A DNA stretch of 64,000 bases from Ruegeria sp. YS9. GTDB lineage: Bacteria > Pseudomonadota > Alphaproteobacteria > Rhodobacterales > Rhodobacteraceae. Where the stretch lies: the NCBI RefSeq assembly GCF_024628725.1, contig NZ_CP102409.1:191501-255500 (forward strand), read 5' to 3'. Positions 1 to 6,489 of this stretch are shown here, piece after piece. Made by a program: the position numbers and the translations under genes. The notes beneath the pieces were generated by a model. That model worked only from the letters and a program-made list of their open reading frames with translations. It was not told the DNA's origin and did no database searches. How positions within the stretch are numbered: the stretch's first letter is position 1; the number at the start of each line of letters is the position of its first letter.

Positions 1-316
1 CTTTGTCGGCGGCCTTTTCCTTGATCTTCTTGCCTGCGGCCTTGGCGTCAATCTCGGCCCACTCACCGGTCAGCGCACCGGTCAGATCATCGGCCGGCAT
101 CGGAGGCCAGTCCGTGCGCGCCCACGAAGGCCCTTCGGCCTCACGCTGCACATCCGGCGCGGCGTCGCCCATGGCCTTGAAGAACTCGACCCAGGCAGCG
201 TCTACTGCACCGGGGTTCTTGGTGTATTGGGCATAAAGTTGTTCCAGGTATTCGGCATTATGCCCCTGCATGAAGCTTGAGGCATGAAAGGCAGAGTTGG
301 GCGAGTGTTCGGTCAT
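1..316 (-). CDS. sucA: 2-oxoglutarate dehydrogenase E1 component, N-terminal part
   Basis: Partial gene; the first 105 codons are present and the rest lies beyond the left edge. It would encode the thiamine-diphosphate E1 subunit of the 2-oxoglutarate dehydrogenase complex of the TCA cycle. The visible part has the typical E1 amino end: MTEHSPNSAFHASSFMQG, then a YLEQLYAQY segment (the helix that binds E2), then a variable acidic/Ala-rich linker. The ATG overlaps the stop of the upstream DUF805 gene as ATGA, so translation is probably coupled. It is the last gene visible of a minus-strand sucC-sucD-sucA operon. Catalytic domains cannot be seen here. Confidence 0.93.
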   Translation of the reverse strand, partial: MTEHSPNSAFHASSFMQGHNAEYLEQLYAQYTKNPGAVDAAWVEFFKAMGDAAPDVQREAEGPSWARTDWPPMPADDLTGALTGEWAEIDAKAAGKKIKEKAADK

Positions 317-855
317 TGGGCTACCTCTGTTGGGTTGGGACCGTATTGATTGGTGCCTGGCTGGCTGGGGCGGGTCAGCCACCACAGCACCAGGAGGGGC
401 GACACCACCAGAACGATAAGTGTCGGGATGACGATCAGCAATGTTGCGCGGGTAAACAAAATGTCCAGAGTGCCACCATGCTGGAAATGAGAGGCGAGGC
501 CGATGCCGAAGATCAGAACCGCAAAGGCCCCAAGGATCAGCAGGATCGGCAGCAAAGCATAAAGCCCGCTGCGCCCGGTATCATGCATCCGTCGCCACGC
601 GACAGCCAGATGCGGGAAGAAAACGATCAGGCCGACGATGCTCTGCACCGGTTGCGAAGAAGTGGCGGTGATGGATTTGGACGTATCCGTCTCAGTCACA
701 GTGACCTGAGTGAAGAACTGCCAGTCAATGATCCCGGCGATGATGTTCCAGATCACGATGAACAGAAAGAAGAACCAGTATTCGGTCCGCGAGGCACGGC
801 CTGAGAAGGTGAAGAACTTGGCGAAACAGGTGCGGATGGCGTCGGAGAAGGTCAT
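313..855 (-). CDS. DUF805 family membrane protein
   Basis: Predicted inner-membrane protein of 180 residues with the DUF805 signature: an amino-terminal CFAKFFTFSGRASRTEYW segment followed by four hydrophobic stretches (roughly residues 28-48, 75-90, 100-125 and 135-160). The family (E. coli YhaH/YhaI relatives) has no established biochemical role. It overlaps both neighbours by 4 bp (852-855 and 313-316), so it is translationally embedded between a periplasmic protein and sucA. It is not a TCA enzyme, and its place inside the suc operon is a passenger arrangement. Confidence 0.85.
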   Translation of the reverse strand: MTFSDAIRTCFAKFFTFSGRASRTEYWFFFLFIVIWNIIAGIIDWQFFTQVTVTETDTSKSITATSSQPVQSIVGLIVFFPHLAVAWRRMHDTGRSGLYALLPILLILGAFAVLIFGIGLASHFQHGGTLDILFTRATLLIVIPTLIVLVVSPLLVLWWLTRPSQPGTNQYGPNPTEVAQ

Positions 856-1538
856 CGTGACTTCTCCGGTCGCTTTGTGGTTACAGTTGTGAAAACTGAC
901 GATACATCAAATTCTGGGTCTGAGGCAGATTGCATTCGATGTATGTTCAGGATCGCGCCGTTCATGCTTCTTTTGAACGTATCATTTTCGGAGAACTGTG
1001 ACCGAAGATGAAGAACTGGCGGAAGGGATTTGGGTTCGCGGTCCGAGTCCGCTAGTAACTTCTCAAAAGTAGTTGGAGAGTCTTCTTCTTTGAGCGCCAA
1101 AACACAGTTGGTTTGCTCGAAATCTCCATTCTTGTAGCTATCGACTCGCAAAACGCTACCGGTTTGGTCACGAACAAACCATCTGTCCTTCTTTTCGGAA
1201 CCATCAACTATCTTCAAGTTGCGCGCACCTGTCGCATTGGTGAGAGCTAACTCCCAAGTGCTTGCGATGCGCGTGTCTGAGTAGTCGCCAGTGCCAAAGT
1301 GATTTGGTAAATAGGTGGCTGCGTAAGACCGGATTGCCCTGTCATCAAGATTTGCAGGCACCTTGGGCGTCCACCCAACTTGAATAAGCGCATCTGTCAG
1401 TATGGCCAGATCGGTTGCTGACTGGCATGCGCTGATGGCTTCTGAGGCGATGTCAGTGTTGCTAGCGATAGCAGAGACGGGTGCGGCTGCCACAATGGCA
1501 GCCACTAGACCATACAGAAATTTACCGCCCCGGCTCAC
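852..1538 (-). CDS. predicted exported protein of unknown function
   Basis: I do not recognise the family. The 228-residue product begins with a plausible signal peptide (basic MSRGGK, hydrophobic core to about residue 25, cleavage near ASA/IAS). The mature part has two Cys residues, about 38 and 143, that could pair. The stretch is visibly more AT-rich than the flanking sucD, suggesting a different origin. It lies 3 bp after the sucD stop and overlaps the DUF805 start by 4 bp, so it is co-transcribed with the suc operon. Function unknown; periplasmic location is inferred only from the signal peptide. Confidence 0.75.
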   Translation of the reverse strand: MSRGGKFLYGLVAAIVAAAPVSAIASNTDIASEAISACQSATDLAILTDALIQVGWTPKVPANLDDRAIRSYAATYLPNHFGTGDYSDTRIASTWELALTNATGARNLKIVDGSEKKDRWFVRDQTGSVLRVDSYKNGDFEQTNCVLALKEEDSPTTFEKLLADSDREPKSLPPVLHLRSQFSENDTFKRSMNGAILNIHRMQSASDPEFDVSSVFTTVTTKRPEKSR

Positions 1539-1541
1539 AGC

Positions 1542-2423
1542 TTACCCAATCGCTTCCAGCACGGCCTCACCCAGCTGCGCCGGGCTTTCGGCCACGACGA
1601 TACCGGCCGCGCGCATGGCTTCGATCTTGTCTTCCGCACCGCCCTTGCCACCGGCGACAATCGCGCCTGCGTGACCCATGCGGCGGCCCGGAGGGGCTGT
1701 GCGGCCTGCGATGAAACCGGCGGTCGGCTTCTTGCGGCCCTTCTTGGCTTCATCCGCCAGGAATTGCGCGGCTTCTTCTTCGGCCGAGCCGCCGATCTCA
1801 CCGATCATGATGATCGACTCGGTCTCGTCATCCGCCAGGAACCATTCCAGAACGTCGATATGCTCGGTACCTTTGATCGGGTCACCGCCGATGCCCACGC
1901 AGGTAGACTGGCCCAGACCAACATCGGTGGTCTGCTTGACGGCCTCGTAGGTCAGGGTGCCCGAGCGGGACACAACGCCGACCGAACCGCGCTTGTGGAT
2001 GTGGCCGGGCATGATCCCGATCTTGCAGGCGTCGGGCGTGATGACACCGGGGCAGTTCGGGCCGATCAGACGCGACTTGCTGCCTTCCAGCGCGCGCTTC
2101 ACCTTCATCATGTCCAGAACAGGGATGCCTTCTGTGATGCAGACGATCACTTCCATCTCGGCATCAATCGCTTCGAGGATCGAGTCAGCCGCAAAAGGCG
2201 GCGGCACATAGATCACCGAAGCATTGGCTTCGGTCACATGCTTGGCTTCGTGGACCGAGTTGAACACGGGCAGGCCCAGATGCTCCATCCCGCCTTTGCC
2301 GGGGGTGACGCCGCCGACCATCTTGGTGCCATAGGCAATGGCCTGTTCGCTGTGGAATGTACCCTGCGAGCCGGTAAAGCCCTGACAGATCACTTTGGTG
2401 TTTTCGTCGATGAGGACTGCCAT
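1542..2423 (-). CDS. sucD: succinate-CoA ligase (ADP-forming), alpha subunit
   Basis: Catalyses succinyl-CoA + ADP/GDP + Pi to succinate + ATP/GTP + CoA together with SucC. The 293-residue product has the CoA-binding Rossmann start ([20 protein letters not shown]), the IGPNCPG loop, and the phosphohistidine segment [15 protein letters not shown] near residue 245. The reading frame stays open 22 codons upstream, but ATG at 2423 is chosen because it matches the family start and is preceded by AGAAAGGGACAAA. Unlike most bacteria, sucC and sucD are not adjacent: a lipoprotein gene, a duplicated sucD start and a glycosyltransferase separate them. Confidence 0.97.
2365..2423 (-). repeat. direct repeat, copy 1 (genuine sucD 5' end)
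   Basis: The first 59 bases of sucD. The same 59 bases occur at 3321-3379 in the same orientation with two mismatches, both at third codon positions. Sequence similarity ends abruptly at the GGCTCGCA end and is weak upstream of the ATG. The two copies flank the glycosyltransferase gene. Confidence 0.93.
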
Positions 2424-2436
2424 TTTGTCCCTTTCT

Positions 2437-3264: not shown

Positions 3265-3289
3265 GGGTTACGTTCAGTTTCCAGAAAGA

Positions 3290-3379
3290 TCAGACAGTCC
3301 ACACCGAGTGCAATCCGTTATGCGAGCCGGTAAAACCCTGACAGATCACTTTAGTGTTTTCGTCGATGAGGACTGCCAT
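3290..3379 (-). pseudogene. sucD 5' fragment forming a 29-codon ORF
   Basis: Starts with the first 19 codons of sucD (same protein sequence as the real gene, two synonymous base differences), then diverges to read HNGLHSVWTV and a TGA. It has a better ribosome site (AAAGGAGAACGCC before ATG) than the intact sucD. It lies 37 bp after the lipoprotein gene and 25 bp before the glycosyltransferase start. It is either a scar of the event that placed the glycosyltransferase between sucC and sucD, or is now used as a translated leader. Whether the peptide is made is unknown. Confidence 0.82.
3321..3379 (-). repeat. direct repeat, copy 2 (duplicated sucD start)
   Basis: Partner of 2365-2423, 57 of 59 bases identical, same orientation, separated by about 0.9 kb that carries the glycosyltransferase gene. 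Confidence 0.93.
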
Positions 3380-3416
3380 TTGGCGTTCTCCTTTATTGGA
3401 TTTCTGTGGGCAGCGC

Positions 3417-3977
3417 CTATCCGTCGAAAATCAGCGACGGGACTCTTCCCTGTGGAACTGGTTGAGAAATCAGAAACACGTTGCTTGTCGTGCTTCCCAT
3501 GTCTTTTGCGTCGTGTGTAAGAAGGCTGCCGTTTGGAAGCTGGATAGCGTATTCGAACCTTTCGGATGGAAACTCTTTTTCAGTTCCAGAACCTACCGAT
3601 GAGCGAGCTGCATTCAGAATAGCATCTCCAACGACTGACGAGGGCTCAGAACTAACTGCTCTAACACCGCAGACTTCAACGTCAGATGCACCTGGTAGAT
3701 TCTGAAGCCCGACAAAAACCTTGCTGTTCGGCACTACGTATACAGTATGAATATTGCCTAGGTTCTCTGATGGTTTCAGTGATGCGGCGCGAGCGTTAGT
3801 CTGAAAGCGATCGAAGCCGGGCAAACTCTCAAGGCATGTGCTTGAGAATGCTTTGGCTGCTTGTTGCGCAACGCTTCCTCCAGAAGAAAGCCTTGAAGGG
3901 CTTTCAACACATGCAGAAAGCAAAGCGCTCGCGGCCAATAATCCCGGCAATAGGCTTATACGACGGGCTGTGTTCAC
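3417..3977 (-). CDS. predicted lipoprotein of unknown function
   Basis: 186 residues with a lipoprotein signal: basic start MNTARR, hydrophobic core, and lipobox LLSAC with Cys at residue 23. Mature protein has Cys at about residues 48 and 103 and no domain I recognise. The region is more AT-rich than sucC. Its ATG overlaps the sucC stop as ATGA (3974-3977), so it is translated as part of the suc operon. It is likely anchored in a membrane on the periplasmic side; function unknown. Confidence 0.78.
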
Positions 3978-5167
3978 CCCTTAACCGCCTTCACGATCTT
4001 CTCGGCACCGTCTTTCAGGTTGTCCGCAGCGATCACGTCCAGGCCAGAGGTGTTGATGATCTCTTTGCCCTTTTCGACATTGGTGCCTTCCAGACGCACG
4101 ACCAGCGGAACTTGCAGGCCGACCTCTTTCACCGCGGCCACAACGCCCTCGGCGATGACGTCACAGCGCATGATGCCGCCGAAGATGTTGACCAGAATGC
4201 CTTTGACCTGCGGGTCCGAGGTGATGATCTTGAACGCCTCGGTCACTTTCTCTTTGGTGGCACCGCCGCCCACGTCGAGGAAGTTGGCAGGCTCAGCCCC
4301 ATAAAGCTTGATGATATCCATGGTGGCCATCGCCAGACCGGCACCGTTGACCATACAGCCGATCTCACCATCCAGCGCGATATAGTTCAGGTCGTATTTC
4401 GAGGCTTCCAGTTCCTTGGGGTCTTCCTCGGTCGTGTCGCGCAGTTCGGCGATATCCGGGTGGCGGTAGACCGCGTTGCCGTCAAAGCCGACCTTGGCGT
4501 CCAGCACCTTGAGGTCGCCGCTGTCCGAGACGATCAGCGGGTTGATCTCCAGCATCTCCATGTCCTTCTCGACGAAGGCTTGATAGAGCTGACCCATCAG
4601 TTTGACGCATTGCTTGACCTGCGCGCCTTCCAGACCAAGCGAGAAGGCGATGCGGCGGCCGTGATAGGGCATGTAACCGGTGGCCGGGTCGACCGAGAAG
4701 GACAGGATTTTCTCGGGCGTCGCGGCGGCCACTTCTTCGATGTCCATGCCGCCCTCGGTCGAACAGACGAAGGAAATGCGGCTGGTCTGGCGATCCACCA
4801 GCAGGGCCAGGTACAGTTCACGCTCGATGCCCGAGCCTGCTTCGATATAGATGCGGTTGACCTGCTTGCCGGCCGGGCCGGTCTGATGCGTGACCAGTGT
4901 ACGACCCAGCATCTTTTTGGCTTCTTCGGCCGCTTCTTCAACCGATTTGGTCAGACGAACGCCGCCTTTTTCACCGGCATCGGCCTCTTTGAACGAACCC
5001 TTGCCGCGACCACCCGCGTGGATCTGTGCTTTGACAACCCAAAGCGGGCCGTCCAGCTCACCTGCTGCGGTTTTGGCTTCTTCGGCGCGCAACACGGCGC
5101 GACCATCGGACACCGGTGCGCCATAGCTGCGAAGGAGGGCTTTGGCCTGATATTCGTGAATGTTCAT
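3974..5167 (-). CDS. sucC: succinate-CoA ligase (ADP-forming), beta subunit
   Basis: Partner of SucD in the TCA cycle. The 397-residue product is full length for the family. It has the [12 protein letters not shown] start, an ATP-grasp domain (about 1-230) with the HAGGRGKG loop, the Mg-binding LEINPL segment, and the carboxy-terminal CoA-ligase domain with DVGGGA and [10 protein letters not shown]. It is the first gene of the minus-strand suc operon; the 5' leader holds a pair of TGTGATCACA palindromes about 108 bp ahead of the ATG. The downstream lipoprotein gene overlaps its stop by 4 bp. Confidence 0.97.
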
Positions 5168-5274
5168 CGAAACTGTCCCGTCTGACTGCGTTTAATCGTT
5201 ATAGGGGTGTCTAGCGGGCAAGTTTAAAGGGTTTTTTGATGCTCGATGGGTTTTTAGCGAAGATTTTCGCTATT

Positions 5275-5305
5275 TGTGATCACAGTATTTTAGGGTGTGA
5301 TCACA
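5275..5305. promoter_or_regulatory. paired palindromic operator TGTGATCACA upstream of sucC
   Basis: Two perfect copies of the 10-bp palindrome TGTGATCACA at 5275-5284 and 5296-5305, centre-to-centre 21 bp (about two helical turns), so a dimeric regulator would bind both on the same DNA face. The same pair with the same spacing is found upstream of sdhC. The palindrome lacks the 6-bp spacer of a CRP/FNR site. A GntR-type or other dimeric TCA regulator is possible, but I cannot name the protein. Confidence 0.75.
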
Positions 5306-5423
5306 AACTTTCCGATGTGGCAAAACGATTCGAAAAAACGGCGCAGCATAAGAAAATCATATTCGAAAAAAGGGATTTGCGGCGTTTGCGCCAACATTTG
5401 CGACCGGGCATGCACGGGCCAAA

Positions 5424-5450
5424 CGAAAACCGGCCCTGAAACGGGCCGGT
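5424..5450 (-). terminator. rho-independent terminator of mdh
   Basis: Perfect 8-bp stem (ACCGGCCC 5429-5436 with GGGCCGGT 5443-5450), 6-base loop, followed on the minus strand by TTTTCGTTT. It lies 26 bp past the mdh stop and separates mdh from the suc operon. Confidence 0.85.
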
Positions 5451-5475
5451 CTCAAACTCGGATTGTATGGCTGAC

Positions 5476-6489
<1,014 letters not shown>

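Follow-up and report, generated by a model that had tools for sequence, protein, structure and literature searches.

A copy of the sucD start between two passenger genes in a Ruegeria suc operon as the probable trace of stacked alleles

Organisation of the suc operon in the window

The window, that is, the whole stretch of 64,000 nucleotides from Ruegeria sp. YS9 analysed here, carries on its minus strand a suc operon in which mdh, sucC, an upstream passenger gene (X), a copy of the sucD start, a downstream passenger gene (Y) for a glycosyltransferase of family 25 (GT25), sucD, a 228-aa gene, a DUF805 gene and sucA follow one another in this order. The features are the following, those recognised by eye being marked as such.

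1-303, minus strand: beginning of sucA (by eye)
313-855, minus strand: DUF805 gene
852-1538, minus strand: 228-aa secreted-type gene (type by eye)
1542-2423, minus strand: sucD, succinyl-CoA ligase alpha subunit, intact (Pfam CoA_binding 2.1e-32, Ligase_CoA 1.1e-27)
2424-2436, minus strand: GT25-allele ribosome site before the true sucD, AGAAAGGGACAAA
2437-3264, minus strand: downstream passenger Y, GT25, 275 aa (Pfam PF01755, 3.1e-19)
3265-3320, minus strand: linker from the scar to GT25, with homologues in five other two-gene loci that contain GT25
3290-3379, minus strand: 29-codon frame opened by the ATG of the copy (3377-3379), made of 59 bp of sucD plus linker
3321-3379, minus strand: copy of sucD nt 1-59, a repeat of the true sucD start and the putative scar at the right-hand end of the X module
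3388-3394, minus strand: Shine-Dalgarno (SD) sequence of the copy, AAAGGAG, the native type of empty loci
3417-3977, minus strand: upstream passenger X, 186-aa lipoprotein-like protein (by eye), whose GTG start overlaps the sucC stop
3974-5167, minus strand: sucC, succinyl-CoA ligase beta subunit (Pfam ATP-grasp_2 1.4e-73, Ligase_CoA 1e-35)
5476-6453, minus strand: mdh (by eye)

The assignment of Y to GT25 is supported by PF01755 at 70.1 bits against a cut-off of 24, and no Pfam family was found for the 186-aa X of the window. This upstream passenger was not mentioned in an earlier, sequence-only reading of the same DNA, which had described the repeat and the frame that it opens. That description holds: the first 59 bases of sucD recur at 3321-3379 on the same strand with two synonymous differences, as part of a direct repeat of 61 nt (2365-2425 and 3321-3381, 97% identity) of which 59 nt belong to sucD, and the leader frame of 29 codons ends at 3290, 25 nt ahead of the GT25 start (3264). 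The strong ribosome site attributed to the copy (-8.8 kcal/mol) and the weak one attributed to GT25 (-3.3 kcal/mol) were confirmed as well, against a mean of -3.0 and a 5% quantile of -6.8 kcal/mol in 500 22-mers drawn at random from the window, the SD energies being computed against an anti-SD sequence.

In a blastn scan for same-strand repeats (E up to 1e-4, at least 40 bp, at least 80% identity, spacing up to 5 kb), the sucD start was the sole hit in the window, and the same scan over 663 kb of suc regions from 54 genomes returned sucD copies in eight genomes and four other hits. The latter are a 45-bp repeat in G358 and a direct repeat of 182 bp in three genomes; this longer repeat, about 80-82% identical and carried by G342, G343 and G358 in the downstream part of the suc region (L070/L073, 10450-10928), is possibly a duplicated domain. 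Since clear sucD copies occur in 8 of the 54 Ruegeria genomes, with an eroded one in a ninth, the repeat is unlikely to be an assembly artefact.

The sucC-sucD junction across Ruegeria

The comparison covered 54 Ruegeria genomes, the window's own (G000) included; sucD was found in all of them, and the sucC-sucD gap was read in all 54. The gap is empty (79-85 bp) in 18 genomes, holds one passenger (251-938 bp) in 27 and two (1291-1714 bp) in nine, so that the junction is occupied in 36 of the 54. The passengers belong to mutually unrelated families, among them GT25 (12 genomes), lipoprotein-like (10) and methyltransferase-like (6) proteins, a sulfotransferase and an RDD membrane protein; the Pfam scan of the passengers covered the proteins of eight relatives, and its methyltransferase-like matches lay below the cut-off. 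Several modules occur singly, with GT25 alone in five genomes, the methyltransferase alone in four and the X of G002 alone in G362. Relatives of the window's X lie at the same site in nine other Ruegeria genomes, and this X was not seen as sole passenger among the 54 loci. The pairing of modules also varies, G000 and G007 having a common X (91% DNA identity) and a different Y. On the upstream side, sucC adjoins X directly and is 88-96% identical in the six pairs compared.

Outside Ruegeria, the gap was read in 60 genomes of the family, namely those whose sucC ranks closest among the 289 genomes that gave a sucC match; it is occupied (>150 bp) in 37 of them and unoccupied in 23. A second variable site was observed at the sucD-DUF805 junction (852-1538 in the window), which exceeds 150 bp in 41 of the 54 Ruegeria genomes; its contents are additional DUF805-like genes and proteins of secreted type (by eye) that are unrelated to one another. 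A search of this second junction in the Ruegeria genomes for scars of the sucD type found none and gave weak DUF805-like matches only.

Copies of the sucD start in two-gene loci

A sucD start lies between the two genes in nine of nine two-gene loci, in eight of them as a clear copy (0 of 200 shuffles each, against the genome's own sucD) and in G361 in a badly eroded form. The match of G361 to its own sucD is marginal (5 of 200 shuffles), that to each of five sibling scars of the GT25 class stands at 0 of 300, and the sequence ahead of its GT25 gene has the ribosome site, the start codon and the 29-codon frame all present. The aligned length of the copies ranges from 41 nt in the diverged G355 to 134 nt in G341.

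The 27 loci with a single passenger yielded no clear copy, and their lowest results against their own sucD were 6 (G337), 17 and 19 of 200 shuffles; the G337 match has a score of 16, equal to that of G361, but lies inside the passenger gene. When the single loci were compared with the eight scar-linker sequences (216 tests, 100 shuffles each), the three lowest results per locus included at least five zeros, slightly above chance, namely two in G350 and one each in G354, G001 and G351. These five zeros, with scores of 15-19, were put down to noise; G361 scores at least 20 against at least three of the scar-linker references. The 37 occupied loci outside Ruegeria were tested in the same search for scars, and the weak matches in L135 and L146, which have no start site, were attributed to chance.

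The ancestry of the eight clear copies, G361 being left aside, was examined by comparing each with its own and with foreign sucD genes. The copies of G002, G013, G341 and G358 are nearer to the sucD of another species than to their own, and for those of G000, G007, G016 and G355 the own and the best foreign sucD are equal or within one mismatch.

Ribosome sites as markers of alleles

Because many passengers carry their own sequence up to the sucD ATG, the ribosome site of sucD often reveals the allele. Before the true sucD, GGAGGCC is found in six of six methyltransferase loci, a site of the AAAGGGACA type in 12 of 12 GT25 loci and GGAGACTCC in several other passenger loci. Empty loci have the native AGGAGAACGCC or AGGAGAATGCC, and the native site is also retained by the passenger loci G005, G337, G340 and G345. 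As a separate observation, the GT25-allele site before sucD (2424-2436 in the window) reaches -5.2 to -6.2 kcal/mol against a mean of -8.1 kcal/mol in empty loci (n=18) and is thus weaker than the native one, so that the passenger may lower SucD translation.

None of the eight clear copies is preceded by AAAGGGACA or GGAGGCC: the type of the downstream passenger stands before the true sucD in every case and before a copy in none. Such a locus thus reads as (sucC-X-sucD5') plus (Y-sucD), two stacked alleles. The site on the copy is of native type in the window, G007, G341 and G358, and for this reason the window's copy does not by itself point to the allele of X. In G002, the left half matches the single-X allele of G362 in its passenger (93% identical), its ribosome site and its sucD start; excision between the repeats is possible in principle, and G362 could be an excision product or else the precursor of G002.

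We consider it highly probable that the copy is the leftover edge of incoming DNA that added a second passenger, and that the locus consists of two alleles stacked head to tail. As one part of this whole explanation, the copy would with high probability be the right-hand edge of the module of the upstream X.

Linkers and the preserved joint

The linkers between the scar and Y fall into four classes, the GT25 class (G000, G002, G013, G016, G355 and G361) and those of G358, G007 and G341. The window's linker stands at 0 of 500 shuffles against each of the five others of its class; 13 of the 15 pairs within the class are at 0 or 1 of 500, G002 giving 63 against G355 and 480 against G361, and the cross-class pairs range from 12 to 500 of 500. 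These classes suggest at least four stacking events. The GT25-class loci have a common linker and a differing X (genes of 186, 173, 151, 236 and 105 aa), which indicates that X was swapped after the scar had formed or that the stack spread by recombination; the window's own scar probably did not arise there but was already formed when it was inherited or imported.

The sequence to which the incoming end would have been joined can be recognised in G341 alone. There, 134 nt of sucD run into about 34 nt from the end of sucC, stop codon included (0 of 500 shuffles). Next come an intergenic sequence that matches that of G010, a methyltransferase-only allele, at 0 of 500, and the methyltransferase gene; the other methyltransferase-only alleles, G019, G339 and G020, give 37, 61 and 186 of 500 for the intergenic part. 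At the joint, AAAGRCGG, seven of eight bases are shared between sucD (AAAGGCGG) and sucC (AAAGACGG). Among the eight clear two-gene loci tested, the linkers of the other seven, the window's included, contain no second-sucC residue, and no further sucD was found in any of the eight; the window's linker has no significant match to either. The GT25-class linkers were also compared with the sequence upstream of GT25-only alleles in 25 tests, mostly with noise as the result, and five of the ten tests against the upstream sequences of G083 and G006 fell at 3-27 of 500 shuffles, so that a distant relation may exist. No imported tract was found in the sucC or sucD of the window relative to its sisters, and the first GT25 bin, 95% identical to G013/G355 and 92-93% to the sisters, shows a difference too small to use.

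The G341 joint, in which a sucD 5' part meets a sucC 3' part, would also fit an unequal crossover between sister copies, as expected if sucC-X-sucD had been tandemly duplicated within the genome and then altered by deletion and replacement, with no foreign DNA involved. This course of events is very improbable, however, since X and Y are unrelated genes, which means that the two halves stem from different alleles, and since four copies are nearer to the sucD of other species.

The position of the scars bears on a further explanation. Linkers of three unrelated classes begin at sucD nt 56, 59 and 61, a regularity that would favour site-specific integration or transposition at the 5' end of sucD, with a 59-bp target duplication or a displaced gene start as its product. 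This is nevertheless extremely improbable: the window's passengers include no integrase or transposase, the copies vary in length between 41 and 134 nt, the G341 joint runs from sucD to sucC, and the sole inverted pair across the scar is weak (26 nt, 73%) and has its arms inside both passengers. No integrase match was obtained for the two passengers of the window or for the passengers of the eight relatives scanned. A transposon or insertion sequence and an integrase island were rejected as candidates, since the gap of the window holds no gene of either kind, its terminal repeats are unconvincing and the copies differ in length. The clustering at 56, 59 and 61 counts at the same time against the random joining assumed in the stacking model, which does not predict it; one possibility is selection against longer, less stable repeats.

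Relative age of the two passengers

Relationships were taken from a tree built on mdh, sucC and the greater part of sucD, that is, on genes that lie beside the site and may themselves have recombined, and G361 was labelled GT25-only on it. The window groups with G351 and G352, both GT25-only (SH-aLRT 100), G355 groups with the GT25-only G001 (SH-aLRT 99), and the clear scar takes at least seven changes over its eight genomes. In a search of 394 genomes of the family, GT25 relatives (E up to 1e-20) were found in 25 genomes besides two Ruegeria. Among the 18 non-Ruegeria GT25 loci listed, the seven best, from seven genera, adjoin sucC or sucD; for the remaining 11, neither gene lies within about 1.5 kb. 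The 393 genomes searched besides the window's own, one other Ruegeria among them, gave no match to the 186-aa X (E up to 1e-5). As GT25 stands alone in the sisters and beside sucC or sucD in seven other genera, in which X has no match, GT25 appears to have occupied the site before the lipoprotein-like gene came in.

The sequence-only reading had pointed the other way, to a GT25 insertion that left behind or captured the sucD start; in terms of the two passengers, GT25 would have inserted into a lipoprotein-sucD locus and duplicated or captured that start. The anatomy alone is symmetrical, and for one pair there is indeed an X-only relative (G362 for G002). Even so, this direction is quite improbable given the GT25-only G351 and G352 that group with the window, the seven best relatives from other genera beside sucC or sucD, and the missing match for the 186-aa gene in the other genera searched. 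Comparison of the junction across relatives likewise found GT25 between sucC and sucD with no clear copy in five Ruegeria genomes, G351 and G352 among them, and clear copies only in two-gene loci. The more general part of the earlier proposal, that the repeat arose as a side effect of a gene being gained at the sucC-sucD junction, is supported, with the order of arrival reversed.

GT25 also has other companions outside Ruegeria. In Sulfitobacter sp. F26169L (L092), GT25 shares a two-gene locus (4179-5863) at the sucC-sucD site with a gene judged by eye to be of membrane type; the stop of that gene and the start of GT25 overlap, and there is no scar. In L160 and L162, from other genera, GT25 lies beside a sulfotransferase-like gene (by eye) at sucC-sucD, in either order, hinting at a recurring cargo set of GT25 and a sulfotransferase-like gene. 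No convincing scar was found in the other-genus GT25 two-gene loci L092 and L162, for which both flanks were covered.

Properties of the leader frame

A function of the copy after its formation could coexist with the stacked-allele explanation. As a captured leader, its SD sequence and short frame would load ribosomes that reinitiate on the weakly initiated GT25, in the manner of a natural bicistronic leader. Consistent with this, the SD is strong (-6.6 to -8.9) and a start codon is kept (6 ATG, 2 GTG) in eight of eight clear copies, the leader stop lies within 25 nt of Y in six of them (25, 24, 22, 21, 4 and -1 nt, with 31 and 70 in the other two), and the 29-codon frame is present in five of six GT25-class loci, the two most diverged scars included.

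The codons, however, evolve as if unconstrained. The eight copies differ from their nearest real sucD by 27 nonsynonymous and 7 synonymous changes, out of 141:39 possible, 13 of the 27 falling in G355, without which the ratio is 14:6; the real sucD start has 4 nonsynonymous to 65 synonymous changes over 53 comparisons with G000. Pairwise dN is about equal to dS in the leaders, and third positions show no excess variation; the window's own copy differs by two synonymous changes only, too few to judge. An open leader frame would be expected by chance with a probability of 0.36-0.62 per locus, and the leader of G013 is frameshifted relative to the others. Moreover, GT25-only alleles exist without any leader. 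The GT25 ribosome-site energy is -3.3 to 0.4 with a leader and -3.3 to -1.2 without, and the start of GT25 is about equally accessible in both kinds of locus, with an unpaired fraction in the predicted structure of 0.41-0.68 in two-gene and 0.46-0.65 in GT25-only loci. Judged by these substitution patterns, the leader peptide appears neutral. A captured leader that drives GT25, as the earlier reading proposed, is an unlikely addition to the history of the locus; a role of the copy in loading ribosomes, and with it a coupling of leader and GT25 translation, may exist.

A model of allele stacking

In the stacked-allele explanation, the sucC-sucD junction of Ruegeria would be a site of passenger exchange at which the conserved sucC and sucD serve as homology arms, very probably sucC as the left arm and sucD as the right one. 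An incoming (sucC)-X-(sucD start) piece would recombine through sucC, its other end would be joined with little or no homology to the DNA ahead of the resident GT25-sucD allele, and the 59-bp sucD start would be left as the edge of the incoming piece. In G341, the incoming sucD end would have been joined at a short similarity to the end of the recipient's sucC. The route may have been homology-facilitated illegitimate recombination of taken-up or transduced DNA. The window's genome contains a ComEC-family gene and a DUF2460 gene, DUF2460 being a family known from gene transfer agents.

The observed basis of this explanation is the two-module anatomy, the differing ribosome sites, the scars in nine of nine two-gene loci, one of them eroded, the G341 joint and the GT25-only sisters. 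Against it stand the second-sucC residue missing in seven of eight clear loci and the negative search for an imported tract, together with the four copies that are at most one mismatch nearer to a foreign sucD than to their own and the single-locus passengers that keep the native site. A broader version is rather unlikely as a whole: the junction would act as an integrase-free cassette dock, where modules with their own sucD ribosome site swap and occasionally stack, and where the scars would provide landing homology for left-hand swaps and also raise the translation of the older module.

If the stacked-allele explanation is right, the locus would be a readable record of gene entry and pile-up within an operon of central metabolism: it would identify the most recent module, the point reached by the incoming end and the way in which the downstream gene kept its start. 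The direction found corrects the natural first guess of a passenger capturing a housekeeping start. With occupied junctions in 36 of 54 Ruegeria and 37 of 60 other genomes of the family, the site could be used to gauge allele exchange among marine bacteria, be it through gene transfer agents or through transformation.

Relation to known systems

For Roseobacter, a comparison of R. pomeroyi with seven genomes has reported novel, variable genes of low conservation within the sucCD and sdhCDAB operons and in the interval from sucCD to sucAB, and for SPO_PG006, between sucC and sucD, five peptides were detected and the gene lies on the sucCD transcript (Christie-Oleza et al. 2012, PMC3305630). The site is the same as the one studied here; the passages of that paper on sucCD are silent on stacking, a sucD-start scar, reassortment and allele-type ribosome sites, all of which are described here. 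A sucD-start scar was not found reported in the literature searched, which left most subscription journals outside, and as far as this search goes the scar, the reassortment and the direction are new.

In bicistronic leader designs, a strong SD and a short frame are followed by a stop near a weakly initiated downstream start. The window's copy resembles them in its strong SD, short frame and stop close to a weak start, and differs from them in that no selection on the leader was detected here and the stop-start spacing is variable.

A closer parallel is found in the immunity-gene arrays of the Vibrio cholerae T6SS, for which homology-facilitated illegitimate recombination has been proposed (Kirchberger et al. 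2017, PMC5361080), a proposal repeated in PMC8189183. According to the relevant passages of PMC5361080, plain allele swaps by homologous recombination are commoner and stacking is rarer, stacking keeps the old module, and fragments of displaced genes can remain between the modules. The two systems have in common variable modules between conserved flanks, an old module that is kept, a gene fragment in between and no evidence of an integrase. The site described here differs in lying within a TCA-cycle operon, in that its scar consists of a housekeeping gene's start together with a ribosome site, and in its cargo (glycosyltransferase, methyltransferase-like, sulfotransferase, lipoprotein-like), which follows no recognised effector/immunity logic. 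The analogy with integron gene cassettes drawn in the same passages (PMC5361080) applies here too, in so far as single-gene modules are added at a fixed place and stacked; unlike in integrons, no integrase is seen among the window's passengers and the homology arms would be core genes.
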